From Halichondria panicea (Eukaryota > Porifera > Demospongiae > Suberitida > Halichondriidae), in NCBI RefSeq assembly GCF_963675165.1, contig NC_087388.1, positions 5,985,651 through 6,049,650 of the forward strand: a stretch of 64,000 nt of DNA, given 5' to 3'. Of this stretch, positions 3,383 to 61,924 are shown piece by piece. How positions within the stretch are numbered: the first letter of the stretch is position 1; each line of letters starts with the position of its first letter. Under the pieces are notes generated by a model that saw nothing but the letters and a program-made list of their open reading frames with translations, made no database searches and was not told the origin of the DNA. The translations under genes and the position numbers were made by a program.

Positions 3383-6300
3383 CTAAAGTTTTGTATATTC
3401 ACGTCGATTGGGGAACGCAACTGATCCCTCTGAGTCTTTTTTCAGTTTCGTACAGTACTTCAGTTTCTTACAGCAATTGTAGAAAAATGGCACTAAAAGC
3501 CACAGAAGAAATAATGTAATTAGTAGTAGCCACAAACCAAGCAAAAATAATAATGCCGTTGATGACAATATTGAATACGAATACTGGATTTCTGCTTTCC
3601 TTACTACATCACTGGCATTTCGTTTGGGAACAACTCCTACGATACAGAACTCTGGTGTGTCCACAAAACTATTGAAATTGTGATTACACTCTGTTGTAGT
3701 TGTGGATGTTATTGAGCAAAAGCTTGTGAAGGAGCTAGTTGAGTTTTCCTCATTCCAACCATTGATACGATAAGTTATGTTTCCCATGACATGTGAGTTG
3801 GCTTCAAAGTGAACGCCAAAAAAATAATAACTGTTTCCTGCAAGTATGATACTGATCGAGAAATTATTATTTTTGATGCAGTGCTCCATATAGGTGAACG
3901 TCCAAGATCCATTGAGCAAAAAGGATTCGTATTCGTCAACATTGTCATAAACTACCAAAACAACTGGGCATTCTGAGCTGTTATAGTCTGCTGATACTTG
4001 AATTTGCAACCTCAGAGAGGCGATATATTGTGTGTAGAGCTCATAAATTGGAGTATTTTCTTCTGGAGTGAGTATTCCTTCCTCGTGTATTGTGGTATTT
4101 TCTTTTCTGATATCATCACAATTGCTAATGTTGAAGTAAATTGGGATAATCTGAGTATTTGGGGTCTCAGTGAATGTTAGCTGCTTTACATTCGGTCTGA
4201 CTCGAGCTATAGGTAGTACTGACTGCTGGATCAGTTGAGTGATATGTACTGAACCATGATTGGATTCTTGGTGTATTGATATTATCGTGGAGGATAATGC
4301 AGAAGCAGTACACATTGCGAAGAAAATAATGATATAAAAGAAGAAGAACATGTTACATTTTCTCTTTAGTGTAGTCGGAATACAGCATCGACAAAGTATC
4401 TATAAAGAAAAAGGGATTTACATTAATGAGGTTATAATATCTCAAACACTGCTGCATGCAATAGCTACGTAATTACCTTGGACATCCAAACGTCACTGTG
4501 ATTGTTAACAAAGTCGAGGCATCTGACCTTTGTGGTATCCCGCTGCATGTGCAGTTTTAGAGATATCACCATCATTTTAGGATAGTACAGTACAAGTACA
4601 GTGTACAGTTTAGGTCATTGTCGCAATTCGATAGATCACAACAAAGAATCATAAAAAAATACCATGAACTGAGACTAATTAATTGTGGAAGAACCACGAA
4701 AATTTACTATAGCTACCTCATTACCTTATATTCTTGTTTTGAGTTTGAATCATTGGGTGGTGTGCAGAGTTCGTTTATGACTTCTGAACCTCGCAATAAG
4801 GTAGTAGATTGCAGCTGGAGAGACTTTGCAGGAGAACGAACATGCGGAGAACAAGGAGCCAAACTATTGTATGTGGGAGAAGGAATTATTGACAGTCTAG
4901 GATTTTTAATGCACTCTGATTCAGAAGAAGCTTTAGAATCTGTTGTCTCATCAATTGTAGTACACTGTTGATTTGGCTCTGAATTATCACTCCGAAGATT
5001 TCTTGATCGTATGGCACAGCCATGCCTTTCAGCCCGGCTTTGATCTGTGTATGCATGTGCACGAATATAATAATGTAACACAGTGTGTACACAGTAAAAA
5101 CACATTCATTACAGTAACATAAAACATCATGCACTCAAACTGTGAGTATGTATGTTGATCAATCTACATAACAAGCTGGCAATTAATAGCCTGAGCTTCT
5201 GGATCTCGGGGTGAGGTTGTAGCTGTTGAGTGGTGTTATTTGTGGGAGAACAAACAATAATGAGCAGCTAAATTCACTATTATTATAATCAAGAAGACCT
5301 TGCACAGGCAAAAATGAACAAATTAATATACTCATGGTTACCTGTGATGCTATCAGCCAAATTGATGAGCCCCACTGTAGGATTTTTGAGAGCGTCTGAC
5401 AGGAGACTCCATGTTACGTGTTGTGTACTCAGGAGTGTAGCCAACATTTCACGCAAGCATGACATATTAGATGTGTCGTGATGCTTCCTATTGATGTCGG
5501 TGAGAACATGATAAGATAGATCTAGAGCCAATCCCAGATCGAACCAGTGAGAGCTTGCACTTTCATGAAGTTGCTCAAAAACGTGCTGTAGATCGTTAAT
5601 TGTCAAAGCCTGTATAAAAGCAACAATCAACAGAGTTTCGTTTGGTGGGGAGGAGAAAATTACCCCTCTCGGAAATAATTCATAGAATAAAATTGAGTGA
5701 TACTGGTGACATTTCTTATATGTAAGTATCTACTGGGATGCATGCCACAAACCCTCTAGATACATGTATGTCACCCCCCTCTATACATAATTATTATGCA
5801 TCATTAGCCTCCCTTAATAAAACTAAAGGCAGCTAGGATGATAAAACTAATTACTGACTATATACCTTGTCCAGGTGAGAAGATTTATCCACTAATAGGA
5901 TGATGTCACTCTCAGGGATTTCTGGATTGAGTTGTTGGTCCCTCACTCCAGTCTTCTTACACACATCTTCCATTACTGTAACAGAGGACAATTCATCTGA
6001 AGAAAGTGTTAAGCACTAGATCAATGTTTCATTAAAATATTTGCGTAGAGTTTAGCCACAGTGCATGTCAATTTAGCTTCGCAGGAACTTCTGCATGGTT
6101 AAAACTTTTTACCTCTAAAGCATATTAAAGCATAATTATGGACAATACAAAAGTGCCTTTATTTTAAGGAATCCGTGTAAAGGTATACGAAGTATATTAT
6201 GAGGGCAAACTCAACGCAAATAGACCTTAAAATAACCTGTTAGAACTTCTCTACTACTATAGCATCATTCTTACACATGCTCCATTACATAATCCTATTA

Positions 6301-9300
6301 AAAAGTGATACAGCTTACCAGATGTAATGCGCTGATCATGAACATGACTTTGTACTTCCGTATTCAAGCACACATCTTCCATTACAGAATTACCTGAGGA
6401 AAAGCAGACACAGCAGTTACGCTCACGTAGTACGTTTGTCAAGTAACATGCTCACTCAAAGAAGGCTGTTGATCATGCATGGGTTTAGGTTTTTATAACC
6501 GTTTCTTGTGCATTACTATGAAGTGCGTGGGAGTCGGATATATATACTGATATTACATTGTATGCTATAAGTATACTTCATAGTGATAGTGTATGTAACC
6601 TACATGTTAAGCTGGTACTCAATGCTGATGAGGCACCTTCCACTGTAGATGCACTAGTCATTGAATTCCAACCGTCCTCTTGAGTGCTTGTGGATTCATC
6701 TGTGAGCACAATATACATGCATGCATGTGCGGTCAAAATCATTGACGTATGTTTTACCTGCACTGGGAGACATTGGCAATGTATCTGAGTCACTGCTTGT
6801 CCCATGTATGGGTTCGTCTGACTGAGAATCGTCGTGAGTGCTGATTATTGGAACGCTTATTATTGGAATGTTGGCAAATATTTCATCGCACTCGACCAAC
6901 ACTCTCAAAACTTCTTGATGTTGCTTTTGATCTGCAATGTCAAAGGCAGTTAACCCAACATTGTTTCTAGCGTTGGCATCACTGAGCTCAAGAAGATATT
7001 CCGCAGCTCCTCTGTTGTTGAATCGAGCAGCTATGTGAAGAGGTGTGTCTCCATCCTCATTCACAACTGAGACATTATGATGGTGTGTTTCGACCAATTG
7101 GGTGACTAAGAGTCCCCATTTTGACCAATCCCAGCGACAGGCAAGATGGAGGAGGGTCATTCCATCACTGTCCCTGATTGAACTGACATCAACTGTCGGA
7201 TCAAGCCCTATCAGTAAGGTTAAGGCAGAAGTCGGGTCACCACCATCTTGGCCAAACGCTTTTAGCAGTTTCTTTGTTGAATTATCTTCTGCCTGTAAAG
7301 TGTGCGTGTTAGAATAGAATACGGATACATTGTTTAGAAGTACAGCTAGCTGCATCAGAGTATAAAACAAGATACCTACCACTTTATACAAGTCTAACGT
7401 GAATATGATTATTACCTTCAATATTACTTGTTGACCAATTTTGACCTCAATGAATGCATTTTCTTTCAGGTGCTGCATCTGTTCAAGACTCAACTGGCCA
7501 TAAATATGCTTAAAATAAGCTGGAACTCGAAACACCAGCTCTGTACAGCCTTCTCGAACATTCTTCAAATTCAAAACTTGGTGTGGTATTATTTGTTCCC
7601 AGCATTTCATAAAAACTAGCTCCAATTTTTGAATTTGATCAAAAGTGATTGTTTGAAAGTCAACATCAATCTTACATGTTATCTCCACTGATTCAATGTG
7701 AGACGGTTGAGGGCCAAAGTCATCAACAAATAAGAAACATCGTCGATTAACATATTGCCGAAACAAATGCTCGTATCTCAGTAATGCTTGATCATTTTCA
7801 TATGGGAAAAGAAATTCTTCTCGCATTACGGAAATCAGTGAGTAATTGAACCAAGAGCAGAAATTATTCTGTAGGAAGACTGACAATTCGCTAAAGCTGG
7901 TAACATCACGGAACAGAATCTGTTCAGAAGGTCTACGATAAATTGGGTTGAAATACGATTCTTGTGGTGTTAAAAGCGCCTGGACGTACTGCTTCACTTT
8001 AGTGATGTCATATTGTTTTTCCAGATTCATAATCGTGTTTGTGAGTAAGCTACAAAACTTCGAATGAATGTGTCGTGTTTCATCACGTAGGGCTGTCATG
8101 AACATTTTATAAGAGATTTCTGTGGCTGATACTGTATCACTACAAGGAGTATCACGAGTGCATCTTTTAATTTGAGGTGGCTTGGAGCTTAAGCACTTAT
8201 CTCTGCCAGTGACATGACCCAAGATAGTACACTTTCCACAGTCACATTGGAAGCTAAAGAATTTAGAATCAGGTGCCGTGAGTGATGCAAATCCAGATAA
8301 GCTTGTACTGACGGATCTTGGTTGTAACTCTTCACCTGCCTGACCTTCGTTATCTGCTATAACGAGGTGACAATTTATTGGCTCACTATCATGCATGGTG
8401 TGGTACAAACTACTGGATCAGTATAAATTATCTGATATATTTATTGGCTCACTATAATTATTACGCATGTTGTATATAAATTATCTTATTCATCAGCCAT
8501 GACAAGCCCAAACGGCTGGGGAAGGGTTGTAGCAGGTTTATTGGATAGCTCTCATATCTTGTTAATCATGCAAAATCAGTGAATGCTTTGCACACACTTA
8601 AGTATATGCGACCCTTTTTACTCACGTGAAATGCAACCTTTACAAGCCTTATTAAAGTCAACCACTACCGTATAAATGTTCGCGGTTTTCGCGGATTGAG
8701 CCTCTACCGCGAAAATTTATACCCACAAAAATTTATATGAATAGTAGGCGTGTTCAGTATTATTGACCACACCTATCGACAATAAAAGGTGCCTCACCGT
8801 TATAGGCTAGGCCTGGATTCGAGGGTAACGGTGTGGAGGTACAGCTAGCTGCATGTTGATGTGCGCATGCGCCAAAAGGCTGGAACTCAGACCACGAAAA
8901 TAAAATCCGCAAAATCCTTTGTTATGGTCCATCCGCCAAAATTTATACCCTCGAAATATACCCGCTATACGGTATATACAGTGTGCACAGTGACATTGCT
9001 CTCCTGATTCTTTCTTTGATACATTTTTGCGGAAATGCCTTTAGAAAGGTTTTCGTGGATTTAATGTTCGTGAAATAGCAGCCTTTTGCAGCATGCATGC
9101 ATGCATGGGATATTAAGTTCGTGGTTATAACTGTTCGTGGTCCAGCTTAATCTGCAAAAACCACAAACATTTATACCCTCGAAATATACCCGCTATACGA
9201 TACATAGTGCAATACATGAGTTGAGTTTTCATAAAGCAATCTAGGATTTATATTTATACAACCTACCTCCTATTCTTTGAGTTTGATCGCACTGTTGATG

Positions 9301-9609
9301 TTGTCTCTGTAATGCATCAATGAGTTTTTGCACTGTAGCTTTCGTAAAACTACCAGCTTCTTCAAGAGCACTAACGAATGAATGAAAAACCAGTGGATTG
9401 TTTTTTATCTGGAGCAGCACAGATTCCATTATTCTTCGTGCTTTGTCACCAGCATCATGAGTGTCATTCCTAAGATAATCTCGATCGTTTGGTGCTAAGA
9501 TCTCAAAACGGAGTAAATGATCGCTGACATCTTTAGGAGACTGCTTGATGCAAGTAAGAAGGCTGCTGTGACAGTCCTTGATTGCTTTGTACTCTGCTGA
9601 CTCAGACAT
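3383..9609 (-). CDS. Gene E: intact CARD1-WFNY-ankyrin-Death-TM-beta receptor-like protein, 1249 aa
   Basis: Ten exons whose phases all agree: 9609-9267, 8335-7416, 7292-6758, 6699-6604, 6393-6319, 5975-5866, 5609-5342, 5044-4725, 4542-4477, 4399-3383 (3750 nt). Residues 1-110 are CARD-like (DKARRI, VFHSFVSALE). Residues 115-421 are an uncharacterised domain (CSWFNYSLI, YVNRRCFLFVDDF, CTELVFRVP). Residues 422-600 are ankyrin repeats (GMTLLHLACRWDW, GDTPLHIAARFNN). Residues 694-782 are a Death domain (SHWFDLGLALDL, TWSLLSDALKNP). TM1 lies near 928-950, the beta ectodomain near 951-1189 (ECPVVLVVYDNVDEY, NSYYFFGVHF, FCIVGVVPKRN, several N-glycosylation sequons), TM2 near 1190-1218 and a basic tail follows. 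The start ATG is that of the conserved MSESAEYK. Role inferred: membrane sensor signalling through CARD and Death. The Death cassette (exons 5-7) can be skipped without changing frame; F and G lack it. Confidence 0.8.
5150..5260 (-). other. Possible duplicate linker-exon end inside gene E
   Basis: In an intron of E, this stretch resembles the 3' end plus donor (TTATGTAG) of the DEST linker exon seen in E, F and G. Using it after the Death exon would give a stop at the donor. It is either a relic of cassette duplication or a way to end the protein before the membrane. No expression evidence. Confidence 0.3.
8668..9205. repeat. MITE-like repeats with CCGTATAGCGGGTATA ends
   Basis: Three related segments read inward from ATACCGTATAGCGGGTATATT-type ends, with runs of CGCGAAAA/TTTATACC (8668-8720, 8935-8978, 9152-9205). 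A similar end occurs near 44762. They lie in the first intron of gene E. GCGCATGCGC is present at 8863-8872. Confidence 0.5.
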
Positions 9610-9995
9610 GATGCTTGACAGTAAATGAAGAATAAGCTTTAAGAATGAAACTTTAAAGAAGCAGTATCCCATGTCACATGGCACACCTGCCACACTCTAC
9701 CATACCTAGCATTGTGTATCATGGTTGTAGAGTAATACAAATTAGTCGACAAACAAGTTCCCCAAAACGATAAATATTAGTTTAAGGACTGTTAGAATTG
9801 TGAGATGGCTATGTGGTACAACCATATTCTACACAGTAGTTTTAATCAAACAATATGACTATTCTACTCATCTGATCACGAGCACTATGATTATAATTAT
9901 GAACACACTGTCAGCAAAGTAAGCCATTAACCCTACACACACTGTATATACATGTAAGTATAGACAGTAAATGTACTCACACACACATCTCCGAG

Positions 9996-11163: not shown

Positions 11164-11445
11164 ATCTTTACCAAAAATGGACTAATTATTTATGCTAAAA
11201 TTGCATAATTTATCAGTATAGTCCTACTGTTGAGCGTAACGATGTAGCCGAGAAAATTGAAGACAAATATGTGAGGACATGCATGTACCGTAACTATGTA
11301 GTTGCTATGTAAGTCTATAGCGGATCAACAAATTAAAACAGTTATAACAGTTAGAACCACTGTGAAGAGTATTGGCATGTAACACAATGTGACATTTCCT
11401 TGTATAAATCATTGACTCACATGGCATGAAAATCTCTACATAATA

Positions 11446-13169
11446 TAATAATTTGGAGTGCTCTGTTTGCCACCGCTGACATCATTAGGAAGTAGATGTA
11501 CACTTTGTACAAAAGGAGATACTATAGCAACAACACACAATTCATCGTTGTCCTCAGTCATAGTGATACTAGTAGATAGTGAAATGGTACATTACTTGAT
11601 GTTATTGTCATAAAAAATGACAGTGCACCTACTTATGGATTTATCTGAAATCGCACGAATATTATACTGGTGAGAAATTCCAGAGATGCGTAGATTGATG
11701 GTAGTAGGTACAATAGTAGTACAGATCACCAGACCAGCGTATAAATAGGAGTTTTTATTGAGCACTATTTTTATAGACAGCTCGTCTCGATTAAAGCAAA
11801 AGTCAACGATAAAACCAGCTTGTATACCAGTTTTAAGAAACTCAGTATATATTTCCAGGTCATCATATATCACTAGAATAACCGGGCAATCACATGAGCT
11901 GGACACAATATCTTGAGATGGGGTAATTGAATATGTTAGACTGGACCCATCCAAATAATAGCCTTCGTCAACGTGTTGTATTGGTCTAGTTATGCTCAAG
12001 GAGATCGGTTTATTCACAGCAATACGGTCAACATCCAGTTCTTGACAATCATTGACTGTGAAGACAATGAGAAGTTCATGAGAAAACTGGATTTTTTCGA
12101 ATACAGTGAAAGTTATCGAGTCGTATGCATGCTCGATAAACGAGTTAACAAAGATTATATACCCTCCAGGCAGTTCGTATATGCTGTTTACAGTGATGTT
12201 TATTACAGGAAGGACTGTAGTCATGTTTGTTACAGCAATTGTAGGAAACACTAAAGAATCGTCAGGAACAGTAGTGGGCAGAGTTGACGTTGTCCATGGA
12301 TATTCAGAAACAGTAGTAGTTGGAGTTGATGTTGTCCATGGAGATTCAGAAACAGTAATGTATATGATGGGTGGAGGTGAAGTTGACGTATCAGAATGAG
12401 ATAGCTCTAGTTTGAGAACAGGCAGTAAGACTGCTAAGACCACCACTGTTAGTACCACAATGATGACCAATAAGATTATTATCGTCAACAGCCACGACCA
12501 TTTGCAACGCCTTGAATGCTGTTGAAAAAGTTGAATTAATAATACATTCAATGTAATGCTAGTTAAGGCTTACCGTTGTTACTAGAGACTGATCGCCAGT
12601 GCTGGATATTTCCCCATGATTGGTGTCAGTTTGGCTTGTGTGATCTGCATACATCAGTGCATGTTGTAAAGAAAAGTGTCTTAGAGTTAATATACCGTTG
12701 GTGGGCTCAACGGAGCTTCTCTGCTTCACTGAATTGATGCTGGTCATTTCCATTATGTCGCTATCAGACCCTTAATAGAGTATAATATAATGATTGTAAT
12801 TGCGAGCATGCAGGTATAGCACTAACCATTAGTTGCCAGCTGCAGTGAAAAGGAACTCTCTGTATTTCCGGTAGCTTTAGTAAGACGTCTTTCGACCACC
12901 TTAGCGAGATCACTGTGCCCAACACTAGAGCGTGAGAGAGCCTTAAATACGTCTGTTCAGTTTCTCTCTTCACCTTTTAGCCACTCTGATAGACCCTCAA
13001 GATAGCAGTTATCAGGATCTTCACGACATCTTATATTGATAGTTTCAATAGTAGTATTATTAACTTGCAGAGCTAACAACATCTGCTTCCATTTGGCTCT
13101 AGCTTGATATGTTGCTTCATAGACTGCACTAAGATCATCTAAACTTATTGAGAGTTTGGAGTCGGCCAT
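11446..13169 (-). pseudogene. Gene B: Death-TM-alpha gene with two nonsense codons
   Basis: Starts at ATG 13169 (MADSKLSISLDDL). The Death-domain exon (KWKQMLLALQVNN, CYLEGLSEWLKGEER) is stopped by TGA at 12959-12957, where A reads TGG. After the stop the homology continues (TDVFKALSRSSVGHSDLAKV). A linker exon (MEMTSINSVKQRSSVEPTNG, then a segment with HGEISSTGDQSLVTT) has a good donor; the acceptor CAACAG precedes the TM exon. The TM and alpha ectodomain (12529-11592) are open until TAA at 11594-11592, where A reads CAA. Homology resumes up to 11446 but then diverges, so the C-terminal hydrophobic helix is absent. Architecture was Death-TM-alpha with no CARD or ankyrin. Two independent nonsense changes make it a pseudogene. 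Confidence 0.8.
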
Positions 13170-13984
13170 AACAGCTAATGTTTGAGTTACAAAAGGTTTA
13201 CTGTTTCTCACATAGTTTTTTTGGAATGATTGTGGTTGGCTCACTGTACACAAAGCATGTACACAAAAGGGTATCAGGTACAACACCAATTAAGGCACAA
13301 CCAGTATATATACAGTGGCCCAGATGGTCATCTGCCACTGCTATGGCCACCACCAATTGTACACTATGGCAACCCCTTATTTCCTGGCGGTACCAGTCAG
13401 GTGTTGACATCAATCAAGTTAACGCTGTATACTTTACTTTGTCTTACTTGCCATGCAGGGAATGTTCTGAAGCCTGCTAAGGTAGTCATACTTTTAAATA
13501 AATAAATCTAGTTAATGTACTACTGCTACATAATATGTATCCAATCACTTATTGCATAAGATAGCGTGGGAGTCAGCACACGCGGGGGGTGGGGTTATTT
13601 ATTTTATGTACCGGTATTATGTATTATAGTCTATAGATAAGCAAAACAGTTCGTGAAACCACTTATATAAGAGTATTAATCATGAGGATATTGGATATAT
13701 AACTTGAAGTTGTTGCTAAGTCACTGACTCACATTGTTAAAAGCAAATCGCTAAAAGTTATACGTACAACTATAGTATAATTATGAGCTATATCCAATTA
13801 TAACTATTAATTAAACTGTACATTATTGCGGGTACCAAAACAAAGAAATTAGCAGTGCACTGTTTACCATTGTTAGGGGGAGTACAAGTAGGAGCAAGAG
13901 GAGATAGTCTCAGAGATACCAGAGCAACAACACACAGTTCATTATTTTCCTGGTACACATTAGAGAGTGAATTTTAAGTACATG

Positions 13985-16105
13985 TGTTGATGTAGTGTTG
14001 GATAACGGTGCACCTGCTCAAGGATTTCTCCGCAATCGCAAGGATATTATATTTCCAGAGATACGTAGATTGATGGTAGCAGGTACAATAGTGGTACAGA
14101 TCACCAGACCAGCGTATAAATAGGAGTTTTTATCAACAATTATTTTTGTAGACAGCTCGTCTCGATTGAAGCAAAAGTCAAAGATAAAACCAGTTTGTAT
14201 ACCAGTTTTCTGATTCAGAAACTCGGTATATATTTCCAGGTAATCATATATCATATCACTATAGTAACTGGGCAATCACATGAGCTGGACACAATATCTT
14301 GAGACGGGGTAATAGAATATGTTAGACTGGACCCATCCAAATAATAACCTTCGTCAACATGTTGTATTGGTCCAGTCACATCAAATTATTCACTAATGTA
14401 TGGTCAACATCTAATTTTTGACAATCGTTGATCGTGAAGTCAATGAAAGCCCCTCGAGGAAGCCAGCTCCCTTCGAATATAGATAAAATTAAGGAATCAA
14501 AGGTATGTTTGGTCAACGAAGATTGCTGACACTTTAGGCAGTTGATATATGCTGTTTAAATTGATGGGTATAGGTCTGATGCAGGATTAATTAGAGTTGT
14601 GCCACCTGCTACGGTGACGTCTATTGTATAGCTGTAGGAAATGTGCTCTCTGAACTAATTGTCCATGGGTATTCAGAAAAAGTAGTGGGCGGAGTTGCTG
14701 TTGGCAATATAATTATATGGGTGGAGGTGAAGTTGACGTATCAGAATGAGATAGTTCTAGTTTGAGAACAGGCAGTAAGACTGCTAAGACCACCACTGTT
14801 AGTACCACAATGACAACCAATAAGATTATTATCGTCAACAGCCACGACCATTTGCAACACCTTGAATGCTGATGAAGAAAGGGAATTTCGCATTCACACG
14901 AAAATGTATAGCTCAGTCAATTGGCTGTCCTGCATGCACAGCCACATGAGAGTAACTTACCATTGTCACCAGATATTGATTCTCAATGCTGGTGTGCATG
15001 CATGTCAGCTTGTTTTCATGATCTGCGATAATAATAGAGTTAACTTATGTTTTTTGAGAGTTAACTTACTTGTATATGTGATATCAAGCTGACTTCTCTG
15101 ATCCACCTCACTGATGTTGGTCATTTCCATTATGCCGCTATCAGATCCTGAGATATAATTGCATGCAGGTATATATAATACTAGCCTCGATTCAAGGCCG
15201 ATTAAAATACGGCCTGGTACCTATTGCAGGGGTGATAGTGCGCATGCGCTTCAAATTACCCAGAATATGGGTAATCGTACCACGAACGTAAAACCTTAGT
15301 AAATTATACCGGAAATTAATCCGTTTACTAAAATATGTTCCGTAATACTTTATCTCTATGACTGAGTTCTGTGAAGCTGTGGCTTATGCGGTCTATAGCG
15401 TTGGTCTAGAAGGCTTGAACACTAGTTTTAAGACAAAAGATGCTCTCATTTACGTCTAGGACTGTCCTATAGCCGGGTTGTCTTCGCGAGTAGCAGTTTG
15501 AGGCACCATACACTTCCCATAGCCTGTACAGATCCATGGTAAGACATCCTGACCATACAACCGTCATAGAGGTAGATGAGAGCCTCTCCTGGCTTCAGAC
15601 TAGTGTGAAAGCCTTCTGGAACAACGCAATAGAGAGCTAAGCTGATGTTTACAAAGATAGAAAATAGATGAGGGAAGAAAAAGGGGAAAAACTAACGCAT
15701 GCGCACTATCACCCCTGCAATATGTACCAGGCCGTATTTTAATTGGCCTGGAATCGAGGCTAATATAATACATGCATCCATGGACTAACCATTAATAGCC
15801 AGTGAAGATGAAATCAGTCTGTACTCTGTATTTCCGGTAGCTTTAGTACGACGTCTTTCGACCACCTTAGCGAGATCATTGTGCCCAACACTAGAGCGTG
15901 AGAGAGCCTCAAACACGTACTGTCCAGCTTCTCTCGCAACCTTTTAACCACTCTGATAGACCCTCAAGATAGCAGTTATCAGGATCTTCACGACATCTAT
16001 ATATTGATAGTTTCAAATAGTAGCATTGTTAACTTGCAGAGCTAAGAACATCTGCTTCCATTTGGCTCTAGCTTGAAATGTTGCTTCATAGACTGCACGA
16101 AGATT
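13985..16105 (-). pseudogene. Gene C: heavily degraded Death-TM-alpha copy, split by a transposon
   Basis: Third copy of the B type. Death-domain remnants lie at about 16105-15785 and linker at about 15140-15060. A TM segment with intact CATCAG acceptor is at about 14872-14730, and alpha ectodomain pieces run from about 14530 to 13990 (CFNRDELSTKI, DKNSYLYAGLVICTT). Multiple frameshifts and deletions are present. A 581-bp inverted-repeat element sits between the Death and linker exons. The region 13500-13985 on its 3' side holds no gene I can see. Confidence 0.8.
15182..15762. mobile_element. TAGCCTCG-family element, 581 bp, 9-bp target duplication
   Basis: Ends are inverted repeats of about 65 bp (TAGCCTCGATTCAAGGCCGA at left; the right end is the complement with few differences). 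The flanks are perfect 9-bp repeats ATATAATAC (15173-15181, 15763-15771). Both subterminal regions contain the palindrome core CGCATGCGC (15240-15249, 15696-15704). No transposase ORF. The 9-bp duplication suggests a Mutator-like (MULE) non-autonomous element. Confidence 0.85.
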
Positions 16106-16476
16106 ATTGGAATCATTGATTATTTATATCTATAGCTACAAACTGATCCTTTGCATGTGAATGCATGTGTTGCAATTGACCCAGTATAAACAGAGCCCTA
16201 ATTAAAAACACAACACAAGCCACACAACCATAATGCAAATCATTTTTTGCCCCCAGCGGTGGGAGTTAGCTTCGATTACAGGCCACCGGCGCTGCAGTCC
16301 GCGCGCGTAGCCTCGAATCCAGGCTGATTATTTTTTAATCGGCCTGGATTCTCTTTTTTACTCCATTATTTGACACGCCCACTTTCTAAGGTCTTCTCTA
16401 CTGCAGCACGAGCCCCACCCCCAAAAGTTAATTAAATGTTTGTTTGTCTATTAAAGTTGATCTACTACCACAATTT
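16106..16476. repeat. Partial TAGCCTCG-type ends upstream of gene I
   Basis: A TAGCCTCGAATCCAGGC end starts at 16309 after a CG-rich stretch and is followed by an inverted AATCGGCCTGGATTC without the terminal GAGGCTA. Another imperfect end (TTAGCTTCGATTACAGG) lies at about 16266. This looks like a decayed or nested element. It is also the candidate promoter region of gene I, but no core promoter motif is clear. Confidence 0.45.
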
Positions 16477-21524: not shown

Positions 21525-21750
21525 ATTGCACCTCTCATAGACCTGCCATGCAAGTGTAGCATTCAAAGCAATGAGTATAATTATAACATACCTATGCAAT
21601 CTGGTTTCCAGAATGTAAAATAGCTTTAAGTTGCAGTTAATCTTACTCCAGTACAACACACCTGACTCTTCTATATATGATATGATATTTATGAGAAAAC
21701 TAAGTACATGTGACTGAGAGCTTGTTTACTACACCATGCATGCATTGCAC

Positions 21751-26866: not shown

Positions 26867-27562
26867 TGCAATATGAAGCATATTGCACTGCTGAAAGTCA
26901 TATTGCACTGACCGCAAAACGCCCCTCTGGCAATTAGAGTAAGTCGCCAAACTCCGTCAGACATCAAATTGTGTCAGGTAAAAGGGCGTGTAACGCACAA
27001 ACAAAATAAGACTGACTCAAACTAATTACACACACTAACAGATGGCCATGGGCCTATTGTCCAGCGAAAACTTGGATAGGCCAAGTCGCTTCCAGTCCGA
27101 GCAGTAATAACTTGAAAAAAACCACCGAATTTTTCGATTTTTGTCAGAACCTACCTATCGCCGTTTTTGCCAAACTACACAGCTAGAGCTAACTGACACA
27201 AGCTGAGTACAATCTAGATAGAGTGCAGTACAGAGTGGAGCAATTCCCAGAATCAGGCGACCCTGCAAAGCGGAGCTACACTTGTTTCTTTGTGAGGGTT
27301 GTAAGTGCTGAGTCAGCAATATTCTAGCTATAAGCGCTAGTATATAGCGCCTGTAGTTATAAGCGCTATATATTTTGGCTGTGTAACTTACAAGCCACAA
27401 ACAGAATTGTTATGTAACCACAAGGAAATTTACTCACTATGATGCAAAACCACAATTACATCATTTGAAGCCAAATTTGTAGTCTTAGTGTAGACGTAGA
27501 CTGAGTACCTAAGATTGGGGGTGGGGTTCACTCACCTAAAAGCTCACTTACTGTCAAGCGTC

Positions 27563-46985: not shown

Positions 46986-46989
46986 ATGC

Positions 46990-47983: not shown

Positions 47984-47992
47984 GCAAAGGTA

Positions 47993-50465: not shown

Positions 50466-50554
50466 GACTTTATCCATACAAGCGACTTCCTGTGCATGAC
50501 GGCTGTGTTTGTTTAGTTATACAAAATTAGTATGTGTTCTCACTGTAAAGTATA

Positions 50555-53500
50555 ATGTGTGAATCAGCTGAGTACAAAGCATTCAAGGACTGTCACAGCA
50601 GTCTTCTTACTTGTATTAAGCAGTCCCCTAAAGATGTCTGTGATCATTTACTCCCTTTCGAGATCCTAGCACCGGATGATCGCGATTATCTTAGGAATGA
50701 CACTCATGATGCTGGTGACAAAGCCCGACGAATACTTGATGCTGTGCTACTTCAGATAAAAAATGATCCACAGGTTTTCCATTCATTCGTTAGTGCTCTT
50801 GAAGCAGCTGGTGGCTTTACGAAGGCTGGTGTACAAGAACTCAAGGATGCATTACAGAGACAACATCAGCAGTGCGATCAAAGTCAAAGAATGGAAGAGA
50901 ACCGTGAGTTGTAATGCCCCCCAAAAAACCCAACTCATGGTCCATTTGATTGCCATGTGATATTAGCCAGTACATGCATGGATGACATCGTAGATATTGA
51001 GTTACATCATGTAGGACCAGCTGCAGGAAGTTATGTGGCCAATTATGGCTTCATATGCTTTATGTGGTTGCATAACTTTTACCTGGTTGAAGTTTAATAT
51101 CGCCTCTAAAGCATAACTTTTAATAGTACTTAACAACATTATTATGGAGGCCTAACTCAACTCATGGTTCTAAAATCTTTGCAGGCTATGAGAACAGTCC
51201 AATGAGCCTACTACAGCCATTACCCGAGTTAGCTGTGACTGAAGAAGCTGGGTCAGGTATTATAACTATCTCAAACCAAGTGTTAGAGTCCATTCTTTTC
51301 TTCTTGTGTAGTTTTTGAGTTACCTACCATGGACGATGGAGATGGAGGAACACTACCTGATCCATTAGAGCACCCTCCTGATGACACTGAAGTGGGAGCG
51401 GACCTCAGAGCAGCTGCAACAAGTCGACAAGTAGCACCCACTGGTATGTGATACATTTAATATGATTATAACAATTATGACTGACTGATGTATTATTATA
51501 CAGCTGATTCATTTGGAGGACGATTGCTACAAACTTTCCAAAGTGGAGAAATTGAACAAGTCATTGAGCTTTTATCCCAGGCTAAAAGTCAGTCCATTGA
51601 TCTGAGAGGTGTGTCTGATGCAGACGGCAAAACTCTCCTTCATCTTGTTTGTCGCAAAAACTGGGTGGACTGGTACCACATTGTGAGTAGCCTTGTCGAA
51701 AATCACTATTGTGATGTTGCAGCAGTGGATGAAGATGGGAACACACCCCTTCATGAGGCATATCAATGTGGCAATCTCCCATCCGTAGAGTACCTACTTA
51801 GTCTACCGAGTTGTAATCCTGACGCAATCAACAAGTACGAGTACACTGTACTGAGAATGGCCCTTGAGAAAAATGACAAACAAACTGTGGCACAACTTCT
51901 AGCAACAGGACGAGTTGATCCTAGAAAAGGTAGCTCATGCGGTCATACATACTCAGAATTGCTTGCAATGAATCAGCTCCAACCACAACCACAAGATTAC
52001 GATGGCTCAGCTCTTCAAATGGTGATCCAGTTTGCAGAATGCATGGAGGGTAACAATCACGTTCGCCAACCGTTCACTTCTTATTGCTTGCATAAAATGC
52101 TTCACAAGATATTGAAGAATCGTAATCAAGTTACAATTACTAGAATAGTAGACCGCATTAAAGAAAACATGTTACCTCTTCCAAAAGAACCTGATAAGAT
52201 TCATAATTTGATTATTGATATTCAAAGCCTGTCAGACGAGTTTGACATACGTGGGGAGCCCACTAATGTTGTGGATATTCAAATAAGAAAGAAAGGTAAG
52301 TGAGTAGCTAATTATACGTGTTAAGTGTCATTACTCCACAGAAGGTAGAGAAATCTTTCAACGTGATATTCAACAAGAGAGCATAAACACAACTCAGAAT
52401 GTTACTGTTCCAGCTGATGTTGAAGATCAGGAAACATCCGACTACTCTAATGCAAGTGATGTACTACCAAATGTTCAACATTCATAATTATACTGAGATA
52501 TTTTATATCGTAAGAAAGGTGCATGTACGGTTATTACTTGATGCAGGAGAGTATGGGAAATACCCTAGGGCTTCAGAATTTCGTAATTCTAGCAGATAAT
52601 GAAGAACAGGAAATACCTGACTACTACTCTAATGCAAGCGATGAACTACCGATGTTGCAACCTTCACATACAGAGGTACACTGTACTGCATGTAATGCAT
52701 GATACTTTAGAAAAGGAATTAATGCAAGAATTAATTCATATAAAATTATGCTATAATTATAATAGCTACATTATGTAGTTTTTTTATGACACAATAATTT
52801 ATGTTCTTCTTTGATCTTAAACAGGAGCAGAATACAACACAAAATGATGAGTGTTGCGAAAATACATATATAGTATGTGTATGCAGTTGCTGTTGTTGTT
52901 TTATTGTCTCTTTAATTCTTGGAATATGCGGTGCAGTATTGTACGATGGCTATTCACTTGTTGGTACTACTGATGTGGTACAAATTCACCGGCAATCCAT
53001 TCCACTAATCGCAATACAGGATCCATCGACTAACTTCGTTAGGCTCTCAGAAATAATTACTAGTGGAACAGACTTAGTTACCATTATCTTCTATAAGTTA
53101 AGCGATTGTTCTTCTTCAACTGCCTTTATAGGCGTCGAGATCAATGAGATAATGACTGTAAACTTTGGCTCTCCAACTATCAAGAGCAAGCCTGTTACTG
53201 AGTTATATCTGGTAGGAAACACTACACTTACTGTAGATATCACCACCAATGTGCCCTCAACAAATTCTTTTACGGCTCTCGTTGTTTTTGACAATCTTAG
53301 AAACTACTTAAATTTCATTTCAAGCTCTTCGTTGGACAATTACTATTTTATGGATTTCATTGCTAACGGAAAATCACAAACTAAGATCAGTTTAATTTTC
53401 AACAAAACATCGTACTACTATATTGGTTTGTACACAGACATTCCGACTGAAGTTACTACTTTTACTGTACACTTTCGTGGGAGAATTCTTCAATATGACA

Positions 53501-53802
53501 TTACAAAAGGAAACACTTTCTGCTTTATAAGCTCTCTTGATGATTTAAGTTGTGAATTTTCTCCGAATTCCAACCAGCAAACTTGTATTGTTGGTTCTGT
53601 GCCACCTATATATACTGATACACCATTTGGAATAAGAAGAGCAACTGTAGAGTATTCCACTGCTCTCAACTCAGATACAGCAACCAACACTTTATTTTTT
53701 ATTCCTTTAATGTTATCTTGTTTATGGGTTTGTTTTCTGAGCTGTTTTCTATGGGTTTATGGTAGTTTACCACCTCAGCAGCATCAGGCAGCACACAACT
53801 AA
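50555..53802 (+). CDS. Gene M: intact CARD1-ankyrin-MID-TM-gamma receptor-like protein, 846 aa
   Basis: Seven exons in agreeing phases: 50555-50903, 51185-51256, 51312-51443, 51504-52295, 52342-52460, 52577-52675, 52825-53802 (2541 nt). Residues 1-108 are CARD1 (DKARRILDAVLLQIKND). Residues 117-184 are an acidic linker and 185-345 ankyrin repeats (GKTLLHLVCRKNWVDW, GNTPLHEAYQCGN). Residues 346-448 are an unknown helical MID region (LHKMLHKILKNRNQVTI). The linker has repeated NVTVPAD/NFVILAD exons. TM1 near 536-563 is preceded by a cysteine run (VCVCSCCCCFIVSLI), a likely palmitoylation site. The gamma ectodomain (DVVQIHRQSIPLIAIQDPST, TSYYYIGLYTDIP, TCIVGSVPP) is followed by TM2 near 811-836. 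The internal exon boundaries at 52460 and 52577 are the least certain. Inferred membrane sensor; same family as J, L and D. Confidence 0.82.
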
Positions 53803-54430: not shown

Positions 54431-57400
54431 CTAAATTTGTGACTCGAATGAATTTGAATTCCGAAAGCTACGATGTCGCTTGGGACTGATTTGAAGTGAG
54501 TTTGTTGTGAACTTGGTGTTGGTTTTTATTTTGTACAAGACTAGAAAGACTAGCACTAATAACCACAGAAGAAGGATTAGAGATAAACTTATCAAGAGTA
54601 AAATTATCAGTTCTTCTGTATATAGGAAGTTCGAGTACGAATACAGTATTTCCACTTCCCTTACTCCATTGTTAAAATTGCGTTTTAGCACAATTCCTAT
54701 GATACACAACTCCGGTGTTACAGGAATGTGTCTATCAAATACGACATTACATACTGTTGTGGATGATATCATAGAGCAAAGGCTTGTAAAAGAATTTTTT
54801 GAATTTTCCTTATTCCAGCCATTAATACGATATGATATGCTGTTGATGACGTTCAAATTTTCTTCTATGTGGACTCTAATAAAATAATAACTACTCTTTT
54901 GGAGCGAGATGCTTATTGAGAAATTATCGTTCTTGATGCAGTACTCCATATAGGTAAACATCCAGGTTCCATTGTTCAAAAATGATTTATATTCATCAAC
55001 ATTGTCAAAAACTACCAAAACAACCGGGCATTCTGAGCTGTTATAGTCCGCTGATAAGTGAATTTGTAGCCTCAGAGAGACGTTATATTCTGTGTAGAGC
55101 TCATAAACCCAATTGCTGATGTTGAAGTGAATTGAGATGTTAGTATTAGTGATCTCGTTAATTGTTAGTTGCTTTACATTCGGTCCGACTCGAGCTATAG
55201 GTAGTATTGATTGCTGGATAAGTTGAGTGATATGTACTAAACCACCAAAAGGTTTTGATTCTTGGTCGTTGAGTATCGTGAAGGAGAGTGCACAAGCAAA
55301 AATTACCATTGTGAATAACACACTCATAACAAAGCACAAACATTTAGAAGCTGTTTTCCTCTCACTGATATTCAGAGTATGTCATTGACATATCTGTATA
55401 GGTTCAAATGTGATACGTTATAAGTTATACACCAGACACTGCATGCAATAGCCATTAGCTCTTGTATTCACCTTGAAGCAAACATGACAGAGGCAGCTGG
55501 CCTTCATGGTATCCCACTGCAATAACAGTTTTAATTATAGAGATACCACAATAACAGTTTTAAGATACCACTAGAATTAATTTAGCTAATAGTAGATCAA
55601 GCAAGCATAGACTATAGTAAGATTATAGCTATAGTTAGCAATCACAGCAAGGTGTCTAACAAATCAACGACCAGTGGTCTTATAACTACAATACACATAA
55701 TAAATGCTACTTCTTACCTGATGTTTTCGTTTTGAATTTATAAGGCCATCCAAGTCTGAATCGTTGGGTTGTGTGTGGAGATCGGGAATGGAACCTCGGG
55801 GTATAGATTGCCGTTGAAGAGAAGTCTTTGCTGGAGAACGAGGTGGATTGTATGTGGGAGGATTTTTTTCAGGAATTGTAGGATTTTTAATGCACTCTGA
55901 AGCTTTAGAATTTTTTGTCTGATCAATTGAAGTATACTGTTGATCTGGCTCTGAATCATCACTCCGAAGATTTCTTGATCGTATGGTATGGCCATACCTT
56001 TCAGCCCGGCTTTGATCTGTGTATGCATGTGCATGCAATTATTATATCACAGTGTGTATAATGAGCTGTGAGTATGTATGTCAACCTACGTGGTAAACTG
56101 ACACTGATTGCTGGTGAGGTACGTTCCACTGTTGATACACCAGTCGTTGAATTGCAACTGTCCTCTTCAGTACTTGTGGATTCATCTGTAAGCATAATAT
56201 ACATGCATGAATGCATGTGCAGTCAAAATCATTTTACCTGCACTTAGAGCCATTGGCAATGCATCTGTCAGTGAGTTAATGCTTGTCCTGTGAATATCCT
56301 CTAAAATTCCCCATTGGAATGTTGGCAAATATTTCATCGCACTCGACCAGCACTCTCAAAACGTTTTGATGTTGCTTTTGATGTGCAATGTTAAAGGCAG
56401 TTAATCCATCGTTATTTCTAGCGTTGACATCACTGAGCTCAAGAAGATATTCGGCAGCTCCTTCATTGTTGAATCGAGCAGCTATGTGAAGAGGTGTGTC
56501 TCCATCTTCATTCACAACTGAGACTTTATGGTGGTGTGTTTCGACCAATTGGGTGACTAAGAGTCCCCAGTTTGACCAGTCCCAGCGACAGGCAAGATGG
56601 AGGAGGGTCATTCCATTATTGTCCCTGATTGAACTCACATCAACTGTCGGATCAAACCCTATCAGTGAGGCTAAGGCAGAAGTCGGGTCACCACCATCTT
56701 GGCTAAACGCTTTTAGCAGCTTCTTTGTTGAATTACTTTCTGCCTGTAAAGTGTACGTGTTAGAATACGAACACATTGTTTAGCTAGCTGTATAGGGTAC
56801 AAACACCATGCAATTTAGTACGAGTCTAACATGAATATAGTTATCACCTTCAGTAATACTTGTTGACCAATTTTGACCTCAATGAATGCATTTTCTTTCA
56901 GGTGCTGCATCTGTTTAGGACTCAATTGGCTGTATAAATGACTAAAACATGCTGGAACTCGGAACACCAGCTCTGTACAGCCTTCTCGAACATGCTTCAA
57001 ATTAAGAACTTGGTGTGGTAGTTCTTGTTCCCAGCATTCTATAAATACTAACTTCAATTCTTGAATTTGATCGTAGGTGATTGTATGAAAATCAACATCA
57101 ACCTTACATGTTATCTCCACTGATTCAATGTGAGACGGTTCAGGGCCAAAGTCATCAACAAATAGAAAACATCGTCGATTAACATATTGCTGAAACAAAC
57201 GCTCATATTTGTGTAATGCTTCATTATCCTCATATGGGAAAAGATTTTCTTTTCGTATTTCGGATATTAGTGAGTAATTGAACCAAGAGCAGAAATTATT
57301 CTGTAGAAACTCAATTAAATCATTAAAGCTGATAGCATCACAGAGCAAAATCTGTTCAGAAGGGCTACGATAAATTTGGCTAAAATATGAACCTTGTGGT

Positions 57401-58383
57401 GTTAACAACTTCTGAACGTATTGCGTGAGATCATATTGTTCTTGTTTTTCAAGATTTATAATCGTGTTTGTAAGTAAGCTACAAAATTTCGAATGGATTT
57501 TGCGAGTTTCTTTATTTAGGGCTTTCATGAAGAAGCTTACAGAAATTTCTGTCGGTGATACTGTATCACTACAAGCAGTATCACGAGTGCATCTTTTAAT
57601 TTGAGGTGGCTTGGAGCTTAAACACTTATCTCTGCCAGTGACATGACCCAAGATGGTACACTCTCCACAGCCGCATTGGAAGTTAAAAAATGTCAGATGA
57701 TCAGAAGTCGTGAGTGATCCAGTTCCAGATGAGCTTGTACTGGCAGATCTTGGTATTAACTCTCCACCTGCTTAAGCGAACATTTATTGGAGGCACATGT
57801 AATTAAATCTCACTCCAAGATAATTATGTACAATGGTATAACTTTATATTATTATAGTTGCATTTATAGCAACAATCCTCTGTAGTTCTACTGGAACTTC
57901 AGTTTCTGCATGCAATTGCAATACAAGTGTGTTTTTGGCTTACGGTATACGCATGCACATTTTATAGCATAAACTACTGGTTACAGCTACTGCATGGATC
58001 ACACACACATATACATATATACCTGCTGAGTTTGCTTCATCAACTGTCTGATGTCTGTCTGTTACAGCTTCTAACTCCTTGTACTTATCTGTAAGTACTG
58101 AGAGAAGCTCGTCATCATGTCGCTCATTCCTTTCCCGAAGTATTGTAATGAATTTATCGTAAGTTCCCGGAAAACTTTTTACTTTTGCCTGCAATACAAC
58201 CACTAGCATCCTGGCTTTATCCGTATTCGTCTTGTCAAGCTGAATGATTTTCTGATTTGTTTCGTCTGATATCAGATGGTTTTGAAACATAACTCCAGCG
58301 AGTCCTCCTGGATCTGAAGCAAAGTCAGCAACTAGCTGCTCGTTGCAGCTCACTAATACATCGTAACCAATATTTGTTGTCAT
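54431..58383 (-). pseudogene. Gene F: CARD2-WFNY-ankyrin-TM-beta gene broken in the middle
   Basis: Exons: CARD2 58383-58023 (MTTNIGYDVLVSCNEQLVAD); WFNY 57767-56848 (NNFCSWFNYSLISEIRKEN, CTELVFRVPACFSH); ankyrin 56743-56238; linkers 56185-56090 and 56016-55718; short exon about 55525-55465; TM/beta 55393-54431 (ECPVVLVVFDNVDEYKSF, SSYYFIRVHI). The first two exons have exactly the length and phase of their homologues. The ankyrin exon is 29 nt shorter than in E; the loss after FANIP shifts the frame and a TAA follows (SQDKH). In the TM exon, TGTCGATGC of E/G reads TGTCAATGA, a stop before TM1. The 5' half could still make a soluble CARD2-WFNY-ankyrin protein of about 595 aa. There is no Death cassette. 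Confidence 0.75.
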
Positions 58384-58399
58384 ATTGCACCTCTCACAG

Positions 58400-59189
58400 A
58401 CCTGCCATGCAAGTGAAGCATTCTTGTATTTATCAAAATAATGTTGTCTCAATAATATAAATACCTTACTCACTTGCATACAGTCTTTGCCAGATTGATA
58501 TAGAGATTCTAATGGAGTAGCTAGCTCCAATGCACACTATTAGTATATCCCAAAAAGAGTATAGTATATTCATTACAGGGGATTGTCAATACATGTCATG
58601 CAGTCATGAGATTGACTCTGAGAGCTTATTCACTGCTACACCTGCACTGCACATGCATGTTGCATAAAGGCTCCATGTGGAATGCACAATTCAATAAAAT
58701 AGTTAGGACATGTCTCACAGTATCACTAATACTCCTAGCTATAGCTGACAACGTCCAATCAGATTGTTCGATTCTTGGAACTCTTCTGTACACACTCTTT
58801 AAGTTTTAAATAGAGACGTCAGTTGAGGTGGGGTCCAAGTTCACTCCGACTGAATTTCTCTGTCGATGATATTAATTATACAGACACCGAGGTGCTTGTC
58901 AAGACCGGAACTGTGCAGATAACTTGCTACAGCAGATGCCACACCTGCATGCTTAGAATGACATTCATTAGCTGAACACAAACACTACTCCTCCATAACC
59001 ACTACAATATTATCAGGGCCTATAATTATGTATGTGCAGTCAAGTGTTCCAGCCTCCTCTGACTACAAGCTAGGGAAATCCCCTACAGTCAAGCATCATG
59101 CAATTTATTGCCTCAATGTGACGGATTGTAATTACATGTACATGAAAGCTGGTGGACTTGCTGTATTATACCTCATCACAAATACATCA
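58400..59189. other. Gene F upstream region; no further gene recognised
   Basis: In frame upstream of the CARD2 ATG, the stretch LAWQVCERCN is conserved with gene H and partly with A. Either the real start is further upstream or this is a conserved 5' splice-acceptor region (CATGGCAG/GTCT). No other coding signal. Confidence 0.4.
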
Positions 59190-59669: not shown

Positions 59670-61924
59670 TTACATGACACGAACTCTATTGCTACTTTTT
59701 AGCTTCTTAATGTATAAGATTGCCACGGGCACTAAAAGCAACAGAACAAATACTGTAATCAGTAGTATCAGTAGTAGCCACAAAGCAAATGATGAGAATA
59801 TTGAATACGAATACTGGATTTCTGATTTCCTTACTACATCACTAGTGTTTCGTTTGGGAACAACTCCTATGATACACAATTCTGGTCTGTTCACAAAACT
59901 GTCGAAGTTGTGATTGCACTCTGTTATAGTTGTTATTGAGCAAAGGCTTGTAAACGAGCTAGTTGAGTATTCCTCATTCCGACCATTGATACGATATGTT
60001 ATGTTGCTCATGACATGTGAGTTGGCTTTAAAATGGACGCCAAAAAAATAATAACTATTTTCTGCAAGCATGATACCGATCGGGTAATTATCATTTTTAA
60101 TGCAGTACTCCATATAGGTGAACATCCAAGATCCATTGTGCAAAAAGGATTTGTATTCATCGACATTGTCAAAAACTACCAAAACAACTGGGCATTCCGA
60201 GCTTTTATAGTCTGCTGCTACTTGAATTTGCAACCTCAGAGAAACGTTATATGGTGCATAGAGCTCATAAATTGGAGTATTTTCTTCTGGAGTGAGTATT
60301 CCTTCCTCGTATATTGTGGTATTTTCTTTTCTGATATCATCACAATTGTTGATGTTGAAGTGAATTGAGATGTTAGTATTAGTGATCTCATTGATTGCTA
60401 GCTGCTTTACATTCGGTCCGACTCGAGCTATAGGTAGTACTGATTGCTGGATCAGTTGAGTGATATGTACTGAACCATCAAAACTTTCTGATTCTTGGTC
60501 TATGAGTATTGTGGTGAAGATTGTTGTAACAGCAAAAATGAGTGTGAAGATAGTAATCATATAAAAGAAAAACAATTTATTATATTTTCTCCTCTCCTTG
60601 CTAGTAAAAAATGAGCGACGTGGAGTTGGATGATTCTTATCGAATGATGGATGGATTGTAGTCGGAGTGCAGCATCGACACAGTATCTATATAATAGTAT
60701 AGTCCAATGAAAGGGAATGTACATTATTATAAATGAGGTTAGCCTCAGACACTGCATGCGTGCAATAGCTATAATTATGTAATTACCTTGGACATCCAAA
60801 CGTCACTGTGGTTGTTAACAAAGTCGAGGCATCTGGCCTTTATGGTATCCTGCTGCATGTACAGTTAATAGAGTATCACCAGTATTATTATACTGGCTAC
60901 TAAAGTTTAGATCATAATTATTTGTCACACATCAGTTGTGCAATTAATTGTGGGAGAACCGCAAACATTTATCTACTACATCTTACCTGCTTTGAATCAG
61001 TAATTATAAGACCATCCTTATCAGAGTTTGAATCATTGAATTGTGTGCGGAGTTCATTTATGACTTCTGAACCTCGCGGCAAGGTAGTAGAGTTCTTTAC
61101 AGGAGAACAAACATGTGGAGGATCCTTTCTAGGATTTGTAATGTACTCGGAATCTGTTGTCTCATCAATAATTATTGGTTGACTTGACTCTGAATCATCA
61201 CCCCGAACATTTCTTGATCGTATGGTACGGCCATGCAGTTTAGCCCGGCTTTGATCTGCATGCATGCACGAATATACATTATCAAGGGCATATAAAAGAA
61301 GAGAGGGCAGCAATAGCGAAACAGCGTGGGCGGATGAATGTGCACTATAGATAGTGAGCTGCTCTCTTATAATTATACGCCTTTGGTATTATACCAGTGA
61401 GCATATCAACCTACATAATAAGCTGGAATTGGGAGCATCCACTGTAGATGCATCAGTTGTTGAATTTCCACCATCTTTTTGAGTACTGGTGGATTCATCT
61501 GCGAGCACGATGTTATACATGCATGCATGCATGTGCGGTCAAAATCATTGAGGAATGTTTTACCTACACTTGGTGACATTGCATCTGTTATCCTGTGTAT
61601 GTGTTCATCTGACTGAGAAATTAGACAAACGTTGATTGTTGGAATGTTGGCAAATATTTCATCGCACTCGACCAGCACTCTCAACACTTCTTGATGTTGC
61701 TTTTGATATGCAATGTCAAAGGCAGTTAATCCAACGTTATTTCTAGCGTTGACATCACTGATCATGAGCTTAAGAAGATATTCGGCAGCTCCTTCGTTGT
61801 TGAATCGAGCAGCTATGTGAAGAGGTGTGTCTCCATCTTCATTCACAACTGAGATATTATGATGGTGTGTTTCGACCAATTGGGTGACTAAGAGTCCCCA
61901 CTTTGACCAGTCCCAGCGACAGCA
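59670..61924 (-). CDS. Gene G: 5'-truncated ankyrin-TM-beta gene, otherwise open
   Basis: Exons 61924-61564, 61498-61415, 61255-60987, 60852-60787, 60686-59670 (1797 nt) join without a stop. The ankyrin exon begins in the middle of the first repeat (CCRWDWSKWGLLVTQLVET) where a foreign repeat joins, but the junction forms a good acceptor (TTTGTTTTTACAG). Linkers (DESTSTQKD; DQSRAKLHGRTIRSRN), the 66-nt exon (ARCLDFVNNHSDVWMSK) and TM/beta exon (ECPVVLVVFDNVDEYKSFLH, NSYYFFGVHFKANSH, LCIIGVVPKRN, TM2) are intact. The TM exon has the same length as in E. No CARD or WFNY exon is found upstream within the window. Either a pseudogene by truncation or transcribed from a new 5' exon. Confidence 0.7.

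Follow-up and report, generated by a model that had tools for sequence, protein, structure and literature searches.

In sponges, death-fold and TRADD-N genes number in the hundreds, and little is known of their inputs. A stretch of 64,000 nucleotides from Halichondria panicea (contig NC_087388.1, here C12:5985651-6049650; hereafter the window) raises the question of whether some of these proteins could carry their own membrane sensor. An earlier note on its sequence had described a clustered family in which death-fold and ankyrin modules come first, followed by a transmembrane segment (TM1), an ectodomain and a second transmembrane segment (TM2). We searched the whole genome (131.5 Mb, 39 contigs) and found that this observation largely holds, including the common order of parts within one family, and that the family extends wider than the window. 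Our analysis adds a TRADD-N-like module, a weak likeness of the ectodomain to APD1-4_M, a further gene (G50) and an extent of 305 kb. The locus probably encodes membrane-anchored death-fold sensors, a tandem family of two-pass proteins with a cytosolic CARD or death-like N-terminus, a reading to which we assign, as a whole, a probability of about 0.58.

A tandem array of predicted two-pass membrane proteins

The unit that identifies the family is a two-pass membrane exon encoding TM1, a loop of 210-300 amino acids and TM2. Three genome searches, one for each ectodomain type (alpha, beta and gamma), with neighbouring matches merged, placed at least 48 ectodomain loci in a single array at C12:5,874,225-6,179,464 (8 beta, 19 gamma and 21 alpha), and one further copy was found outside it, on C6. 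Beta and alpha loci lie on the minus strand and gamma loci on the plus strand. The ectodomain frame is open (at least 300 amino acids, no stops) at 33 of the 48 loci (8/8 beta, 15/19 gamma, 10/21 alpha), which does not by itself mean an intact TM1, and the identity between some array copies reaches 97-98%. Three N-terminal versions precede the membrane exon: a CARD, a 280-amino-acid module and ankyrins in the beta type (genes E and M), a CARD with or without ankyrins in the gamma type (genes I and G50), and a short death-like exon in the alpha type. The window contains 10 ectodomain loci and 10 CARD copies or remnants, and six of these loci have an open ectodomain open reading frame (ORF; 8-1201, 3383-4399, 17913-18965, 52798-53802, 54431-55381 and 59670-60686). 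The array has the appearance of a tandem birth-and-death family.

Gene models in the window

Gene models were built from stop-to-stop ORFs and splice-scored chains, those of E, M and G50 being rescored with looser splice thresholds. Three complete genes had been claimed (E, 1249 amino acids; I, 545; M, 846), of which we recovered E and I as chains of 1252 and 521 amino acids.

Gene E (beta; 3383..9672, minus strand), modelled by splice scores and Pfam matches with predicted joins, consists of a CARD exon (9267-9672), an exon with the TRADD-N-like module and ankyrins (6758-8353), three linker exons (6604-6699; 5342-5665, death-like by eye, with no Pfam Death match; 4725-5044) and the membrane exon (3383-4399). 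Its length of 1252 amino acids is counted from the first ATG, and that from the conserved MSESAEY start, chosen from the alignment, is about 1231. A short intron of 104 nucleotides is spliced in M, and the E model reads through the corresponding intron. A stretch coding for YRIAGIFRGYK occurs twice within about 400 bases in the first intron of E (8810-9250, minus strand) and is probably a small repeat element.

Gene I (gamma; 16477..18965, plus strand) joins a CARD exon (16477-16807), a linker (17679-17871) and the membrane exon (17924-18965). The cleanest model is G50 (gamma; 50555..53802, plus strand), with a CARD (50555-50903), ankyrins (51504-52295), two linkers (52342-52455 and 52515-52675) and the membrane exon (52825-53802); its five-exon chain of 797 amino acids, which matches none of the three sizes given earlier, was identical at all three splice thresholds. 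Gene M (beta; 54431..58479, minus strand) comprises a CARD exon (58023-58479), a module (56848-57767), an ankyrin ORF (56276-56779), a linker ORF (55664-56038) and a membrane ORF (54431-55381). Its CARD, module, ankyrin and membrane ORFs are all open and in the same order as in E, and its first three exons join well. However, the completeness of M appears doubtful because its 3' joins need weak splice sites and because about two dozen residues of its loop, including one conserved Cys, are deleted. Rescoring at the looser thresholds left us less confident of M and more confident of G50.

CARD, ankyrin and TRADD-N-like parts

The CARD reached or exceeded the Pfam cut-off of 23.9 in four of the nine window CARD ORFs scanned (9241-9696, 16432-16923, 45568-45963 and 50549-50911; scores 23.9-24.9), and that of M scored 21.7. 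A genome-wide CARD search listed 27 places, none of them inside the window. Compared with solved structures, one CARD profile gave three weak matches, all CARDs (ICEBERG, caspase-1; E-values 0.34-0.44), and a second gave 25, headed by a designed protein (E-value 0.023), with caspase-9 type (from 0.033) and APAF1 CARDs (0.15 on) lower down among unrelated ones. Ankyrins were unambiguous in the Pfam scans and are present in E, M and G50. Death domains, in contrast, passed no family test: no Death match was found at an E-value of 0.5 or below in ORFs 5292-5729, 12960-13289 and 35246-35713, and the best score among relatives was that of the C6 copy (E-value 0.11). The death-fold modules of the earlier description are thus borne out for the CARD and not for Death.

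In line with the claim that the layout is not that of a TLR/IL1R, an NLR or a TNF receptor, NACHT, TIR and TNFR had no match at an E-value of 1 or below in 20 window ORFs of at least 150 amino acids. TNFR repeats were also absent among 25 of the 27 families listed for 26 ectodomain sequences, and no LRR was found in the family. The window ORF scans gave no RING match, and the frames terminate soon after TM2. Pfam matches to UvrD, Melibiase and the like were discarded as chance.

The 280-amino-acid module recurs at 54 places in the genome, some of which are pieces of one copy. The window copies had no convincing Pfam match, and the link to TRADD-N runs only via relatives: PF20694 (TRADD-like_N) gave eight genome matches at an E-value of 1 or below, all under the cut-off, six of which lie inside module copies, and it matched 5 of 16 aligned module members (best E-value 8.8e-4). 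A Gly-Cys pair before the last part of the module, present in 14 of the 16 members, agrees with the uS/uC turn that Kaur et al. (PMC8195603) describe. Comparison of the module with solved structures by sequence gave nothing convincing. At one locus elsewhere in the genome (L002) the module precedes a Roc GTPase domain over its cut-off, a COR-A match below cut-off and a weak kinase-like match; L003-L005 resemble L002 by eye, and these four (on C10, C6 and C1) look like a separate family. L039 and L040 each combine a sub-threshold CARD and the module within one ORF. These results suggest a TRADD-N-like unit, its identity as TRADD-N being supported short of proof.

The ectodomain and its topology

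Across 26 aligned copies, three loop cysteines are invariant and three more are conserved in at least 90%. The G50 loop has four, two of the six conserved positions being without Cys. L022, a close copy of G50 (52798-53802), is without one of the same two, which hints at a disulfide pair. Both transmembrane segments were detected in 25 of the 26 sequences surveyed for N-glycosylation sequons. E has 8 sequons in 231 loop residues vs 8 in the 927 residues before TM1, and I has 7 in 247 vs 0 in 211, with only 2 in the 239 residues of the G50 loop. The eight beta loops carry 6-9 each, compared with shuffled means of 3.0-4.4, and these numbers were reached in 0-38 of 200 shuffles. No signal peptide precedes the conserved start, as the earlier note had it, although in E a start at an in-frame ATG further upstream would prepend a hydrophobic stretch. 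Because two hydrophobic segments are combined with the lack of a signal peptide and with conserved cysteines, a topology in which the N- and C-termini are cytosolic and the loop faces the exterior or a lumen is supported, if not proven, by the sequence.

APD1-4_M was the most frequent Pfam name for the loop. Among 26 whole ORFs it appeared in four, each of the gamma type and below cut-off, and it was found in six of seven gamma pieces cut before TM2 (E-values 4.6e-4 to 0.019; gene I, 6.3e-4), the alignment spanning profile positions 6-8 to 62-79 of 108. The best score in the family was 22.4 bits against a cut-off of 25, and L014, the best whole-ORF match, had none once its end was cut. A comparison of the loop profile with APD-like proteins encoded on C8 and C17 gave an E-value of 0.001 (21% probability) with the membrane segments included and noise without them (14.3 vs 14.2 for the reversed profile and up to 19.3 in 60 shuffles), whereas the three loop types match each other clearly (72-105). 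As the comparison without membrane segments was noise, the likeness draws on the Pfam matches, and a relation of the loop to APD1-4_M is possible. Sequence comparison of the ectodomain with solved structures returned nothing convincing.

This likeness bears on the alternative that the same proteins reside in endomembranes, as lumenal sensors or trafficking adaptors akin to APD1-4-type two-pass proteins, and report the state of the endoplasmic reticulum, Golgi or lysosome to death-fold assemblies instead of binding ligands from outside. The gamma matches would fit it, and the genome does encode PF16041 proteins that score over the cut-off, at 12 places in all, on C8 and C17. The six that were read (L029-L034; C8:5.48-5.61 Mb and C17:1.91 Mb) have a transmembrane-ectodomain-transmembrane layout, are short and show no RING by eye, only part of L029 having been scanned. 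However, every family match to APD1-4_M is below cut-off, the beta and alpha types have none, no RING occurs among the matches, the L014 match is lost on cutting and the profile comparison fails without the membrane segments. We therefore consider an endomembrane role unlikely.

Linkage of the death-fold and membrane exons

At all eight beta ectodomain loci a module lies 0.55-3.9 kb upstream on the same strand, so the pairing is not due to chance. The C6 copy has the same order (death-like exon, module, ankyrin, membrane exon; scored chain of 834 amino acids). Among 27 ectodomain ORFs, 20 have an in-frame upstream stop, and 14 of these 20 have no ATG ahead of TM1 or among its opening residues; L017, the first segment of which was missed owing to a frame break, is counted among the six with a Met. 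The agreement of exon phases between paralogues was also recovered: in E, I, M and G50 the CARD exon is followed by a phase-1 intron, as is the death-like exon of the C6 gene, a shared phase through which N-terminal exons could be swapped. At a distance of about 20 kb from the array (C12:5851500-5854500), a single frame of 501 amino acids (L043; C12:5852212-5853714) contains a module copy, a strong transmembrane segment and weaker hydrophobic segments, with a sub-threshold CARD ORF upstream. Given the order, the phases, the C6 copy and the missing start in 14 of 20 loop ORFs, the joining of death-fold exons to the membrane exon is supported, short of being proven.

The array might instead hold two neighbouring genes duplicated together, one for a cytosolic CARD-TRADD-N-ankyrin adaptor and the other for a separate two-pass membrane protein, as the hard-to-place linker exons and the poor 3' splice sites of M would allow. 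Yet the C6 copy keeps order and strand, most closed ectodomain ORFs are startless, G50 forms a clean chain and the three types place different N-terminal exons ahead of the same membrane exon, which makes two genes distinctly improbable.

Selection and divergence

The ratio of nonsynonymous to synonymous divergence (dN/dS) was estimated for 8 beta, 11 gamma and 5 alpha ORFs among the fetched copies, leaving out frame-shifted or cut ones (L017, L025, and 37685-38410 and 11595-12569 of the window). It was below 1 in all 93 pairs (range 0.33-0.83), with medians of 0.40 for beta (28 pairs), 0.56 for gamma (55 pairs) and 0.65 for alpha (10 pairs) and a median dS across types of 0.32-0.61. In sliding windows the transmembrane segments and their flanks were the most divergent, and the ratio of nonsynonymous to synonymous proportions (pN/pS) rose above 1 in two places only, the TM1 flank of the beta type (1.03) and a gamma stretch before TM2 (1.48, 1.35). 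The loop is thus not hypervariable and is mostly constrained. The suggestion that ectodomain divergence marks an immune repertoire is not supported by these data, and positive selection as such a mark is rejected. That the array is mostly decaying, its open frames being products of recent copying with little current function, is very improbable, since 33 of 48 loci are open and dN/dS lies well below 1 at these dS values, even with 15 loci lacking an open 300-amino-acid frame and some copies nearly identical.

Between E and M, dS differs sixfold among exons (ankyrin 0.12, module 0.29, ectodomain 0.74), which suggests gene conversion or exon exchange among paralogues.

Proposed function

The reading as membrane-anchored death-fold sensors builds on the observed order of parts, two hydrophobic segments, conserved cysteines, CARD and ankyrin matches, array extent and purifying selection. 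The N-terminal part, a CARD or death-like domain to which the beta type adds the TRADD-N-like module and ankyrins, would lie in the cytosol. TM1 would act as a signal anchor, placing the loop (210-300 residues, as many as six of them conserved cysteines) on the exterior or lumenal side, and TM2 would return through the membrane to a short cytosolic tail. The loop may sense a ligand or the state of its compartment, and its binding or clustering would bring CARDs together and nucleate an assembly. Effectors of the caspase or NF-kB type could be recruited to it, while TRADD-N and ankyrins would provide adaptor surfaces, and we infer an immune or cell-death output. An immune role is plausible because genes containing DEATH, CARD and ankyrin domains rise after microbial signals in two sponges (PMC6208332). 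For a role in allorecognition, copy number is the one feature that would speak.

Several results weigh against this reading. For the module, the six PF20694 matches inside copies all come from one C5 group, the best score is 20.7 against a cut-off of 23.7, one member scores equally with an unrelated family (19.5 bits), and the AlphaFold2 model (five window rows) had a predicted local distance difference test (pLDDT) score of 36.6, too poor to use. For the loop, the structure prediction proposed in the earlier note was run with AlphaFold2 on eight window copies and proved unusable (pLDDT 41.5); the charge rule across TM1 was satisfied in only 14 of 27 ectodomain ORFs, a weak support for the topology; no hypervariable face emerged in the sliding windows; and in the alpha loops, as in many of the gamma ones, sequons are no more numerous than in shuffles. 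As to the joins, the middle exons of E have two weak acceptors (-3.1 and -2.7), the best M chain at normal splice thresholds (862 amino acids) is without TM1 and half of the ankyrins, the M chain that retains TM1 (1014 amino acids) requires poor splice sites, and the C6 chain loses the end of the module and part of TM1. Four of the 12 modules at C12:5.85-6.12 Mb are without a beta ectodomain: one has a gamma ectodomain at 2.8 kb, one has none, and two have only alpha ectodomains at 5-6 kb, an opposite-strand gamma ectodomain being nearer (about 1 kb). L043 is not clearly two-pass, with three weaker segments beyond the first strong one, and its short loop is unrelated to the family loop by search, with one weak match elsewhere.

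A bolder and tentative version, which we doubt more than we credit, is that these are 'inverted' death-fold receptors, in which an APD-type two-pass lumenal module was fused to a sponge CARD/TRADD-N/ankyrin chassis and some fifty copies sense microbes or non-self. If true, the fused array would be a new class of animal receptor. On the main reading already, a membrane sensor in one chain with a CARD and a TRADD-N-like module would illustrate how such proteins can sense the exterior or a lumen with no receptor of another kind, and such a layout could belong to an early animal immune system. For work on sponge immunity, the array also offers a delimited group of candidate genes.

Other family members in the window

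The many decayed copies reported earlier were confirmed across the window. At its right edge, another beta gene (59670..61924, minus strand) is cut by the boundary: its 3' part, with ankyrins, a linker and the membrane exon, lies inside, and its module sits beyond at C12:6050274-6051245. At the left edge, an alpha gene (8..1991, minus) has an open membrane ORF (8-1201, 397 amino acids), a death-like piece (1397-1681) and a CARD remnant (1647-1991). Another alpha copy (11439..13289, minus) combines a death-like exon (12960-13289) with a TM1-ectodomain part (11592-12569) that meets a stop before TM2, and an alpha relic (13791..16123, minus) has a broken frame. A beta relic (19743..21563, minus) retains a CARD (21176-21563), a module (19955-20797) and an ankyrin scrap (19743-19835). 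On the plus strand are a relic with a broken frame (27506..28907; CARD 27506-27886, gamma ankyrins 28254-28907), a gamma relic (36983..38666; ankyrin end 36983-37285, TM1-ectodomain part 37829-38666 with a frame break) and a gamma ankyrin remnant (2017..2424) with no ectodomain exon found downstream. A divergent alpha-like ectodomain relic lies at 39238..39824 (minus), and three CARD copies have no recognised partner (40404-40817, minus; 45172-45468, minus; 45637-45948, plus). Between family members, an open frame of 332 amino acids (43201-44199, minus) looks mobile-element-like by eye and has no Pfam match.

Comparison with known systems

Plant APD1-4 proteins have a membrane layout of two transmembrane segments enclosing a loop. 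The Halichondria proteins share this layout with the APD1-4 RING E3 ligases (PF16040/PF16041), and the second half of the gamma loop weakly matches APD1-4_M; unlike the ligases, they begin with death-fold, TRADD-N-like and ankyrin parts, and no RING was found. In TNF-receptor signalling, TRADD uses a death-fold and a TRADD-N domain as an adaptor pair (PMC8195603). A pair of this kind may recur here, whereas adaptor parts and membrane sensor are united in one predicted polypeptide, in which no TNFR repeats were found.

In Amphimedon, 357 proteins of the NCOA6 clade of TRADD-N have been described, mostly with one to three death-fold domains, TRADD-N and a variable C-terminus in which ankyrins are among the commonest parts (Kaur et al. 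2021, PMC8195603). The module, as a candidate TRADD-N, would tie the window family to this sponge expansion, with which it shares an N-terminal death-fold (the CARD in four of nine ORFs), a variable or ankyrin C-terminus and lineage-specific expansion (the 54 module places). The two-pass membrane C-terminus sets it apart, none being mentioned for Amphimedon in sections 8, 10, 11 and 13 of that paper. Receptor-like TRADD-N proteins of Crassostrea virginica likewise combine an ectodomain, a transmembrane segment and intracellular death-fold and TRADD-N domains in one chain, but their Cys-rich ectodomain is N-terminal with one transmembrane segment, whereas ours is C-terminal between two (PMC8195603). 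Putative membrane-bound sponge NLRs (PMC12909245) resemble the family as expanded immune-type proteins with transmembrane segments and differ in NACHT and LRR, neither of which was found here. Among the titles and abstract openings listed by literature searches, none describes a death-fold or TRADD-N protein with a C-terminal two-pass ectodomain. Within these sources, the nearest known systems are the receptor-like TRADD-N proteins of the oyster, whose ectodomain sits at the opposite end, and the putative membrane-bound sponge NLRs.

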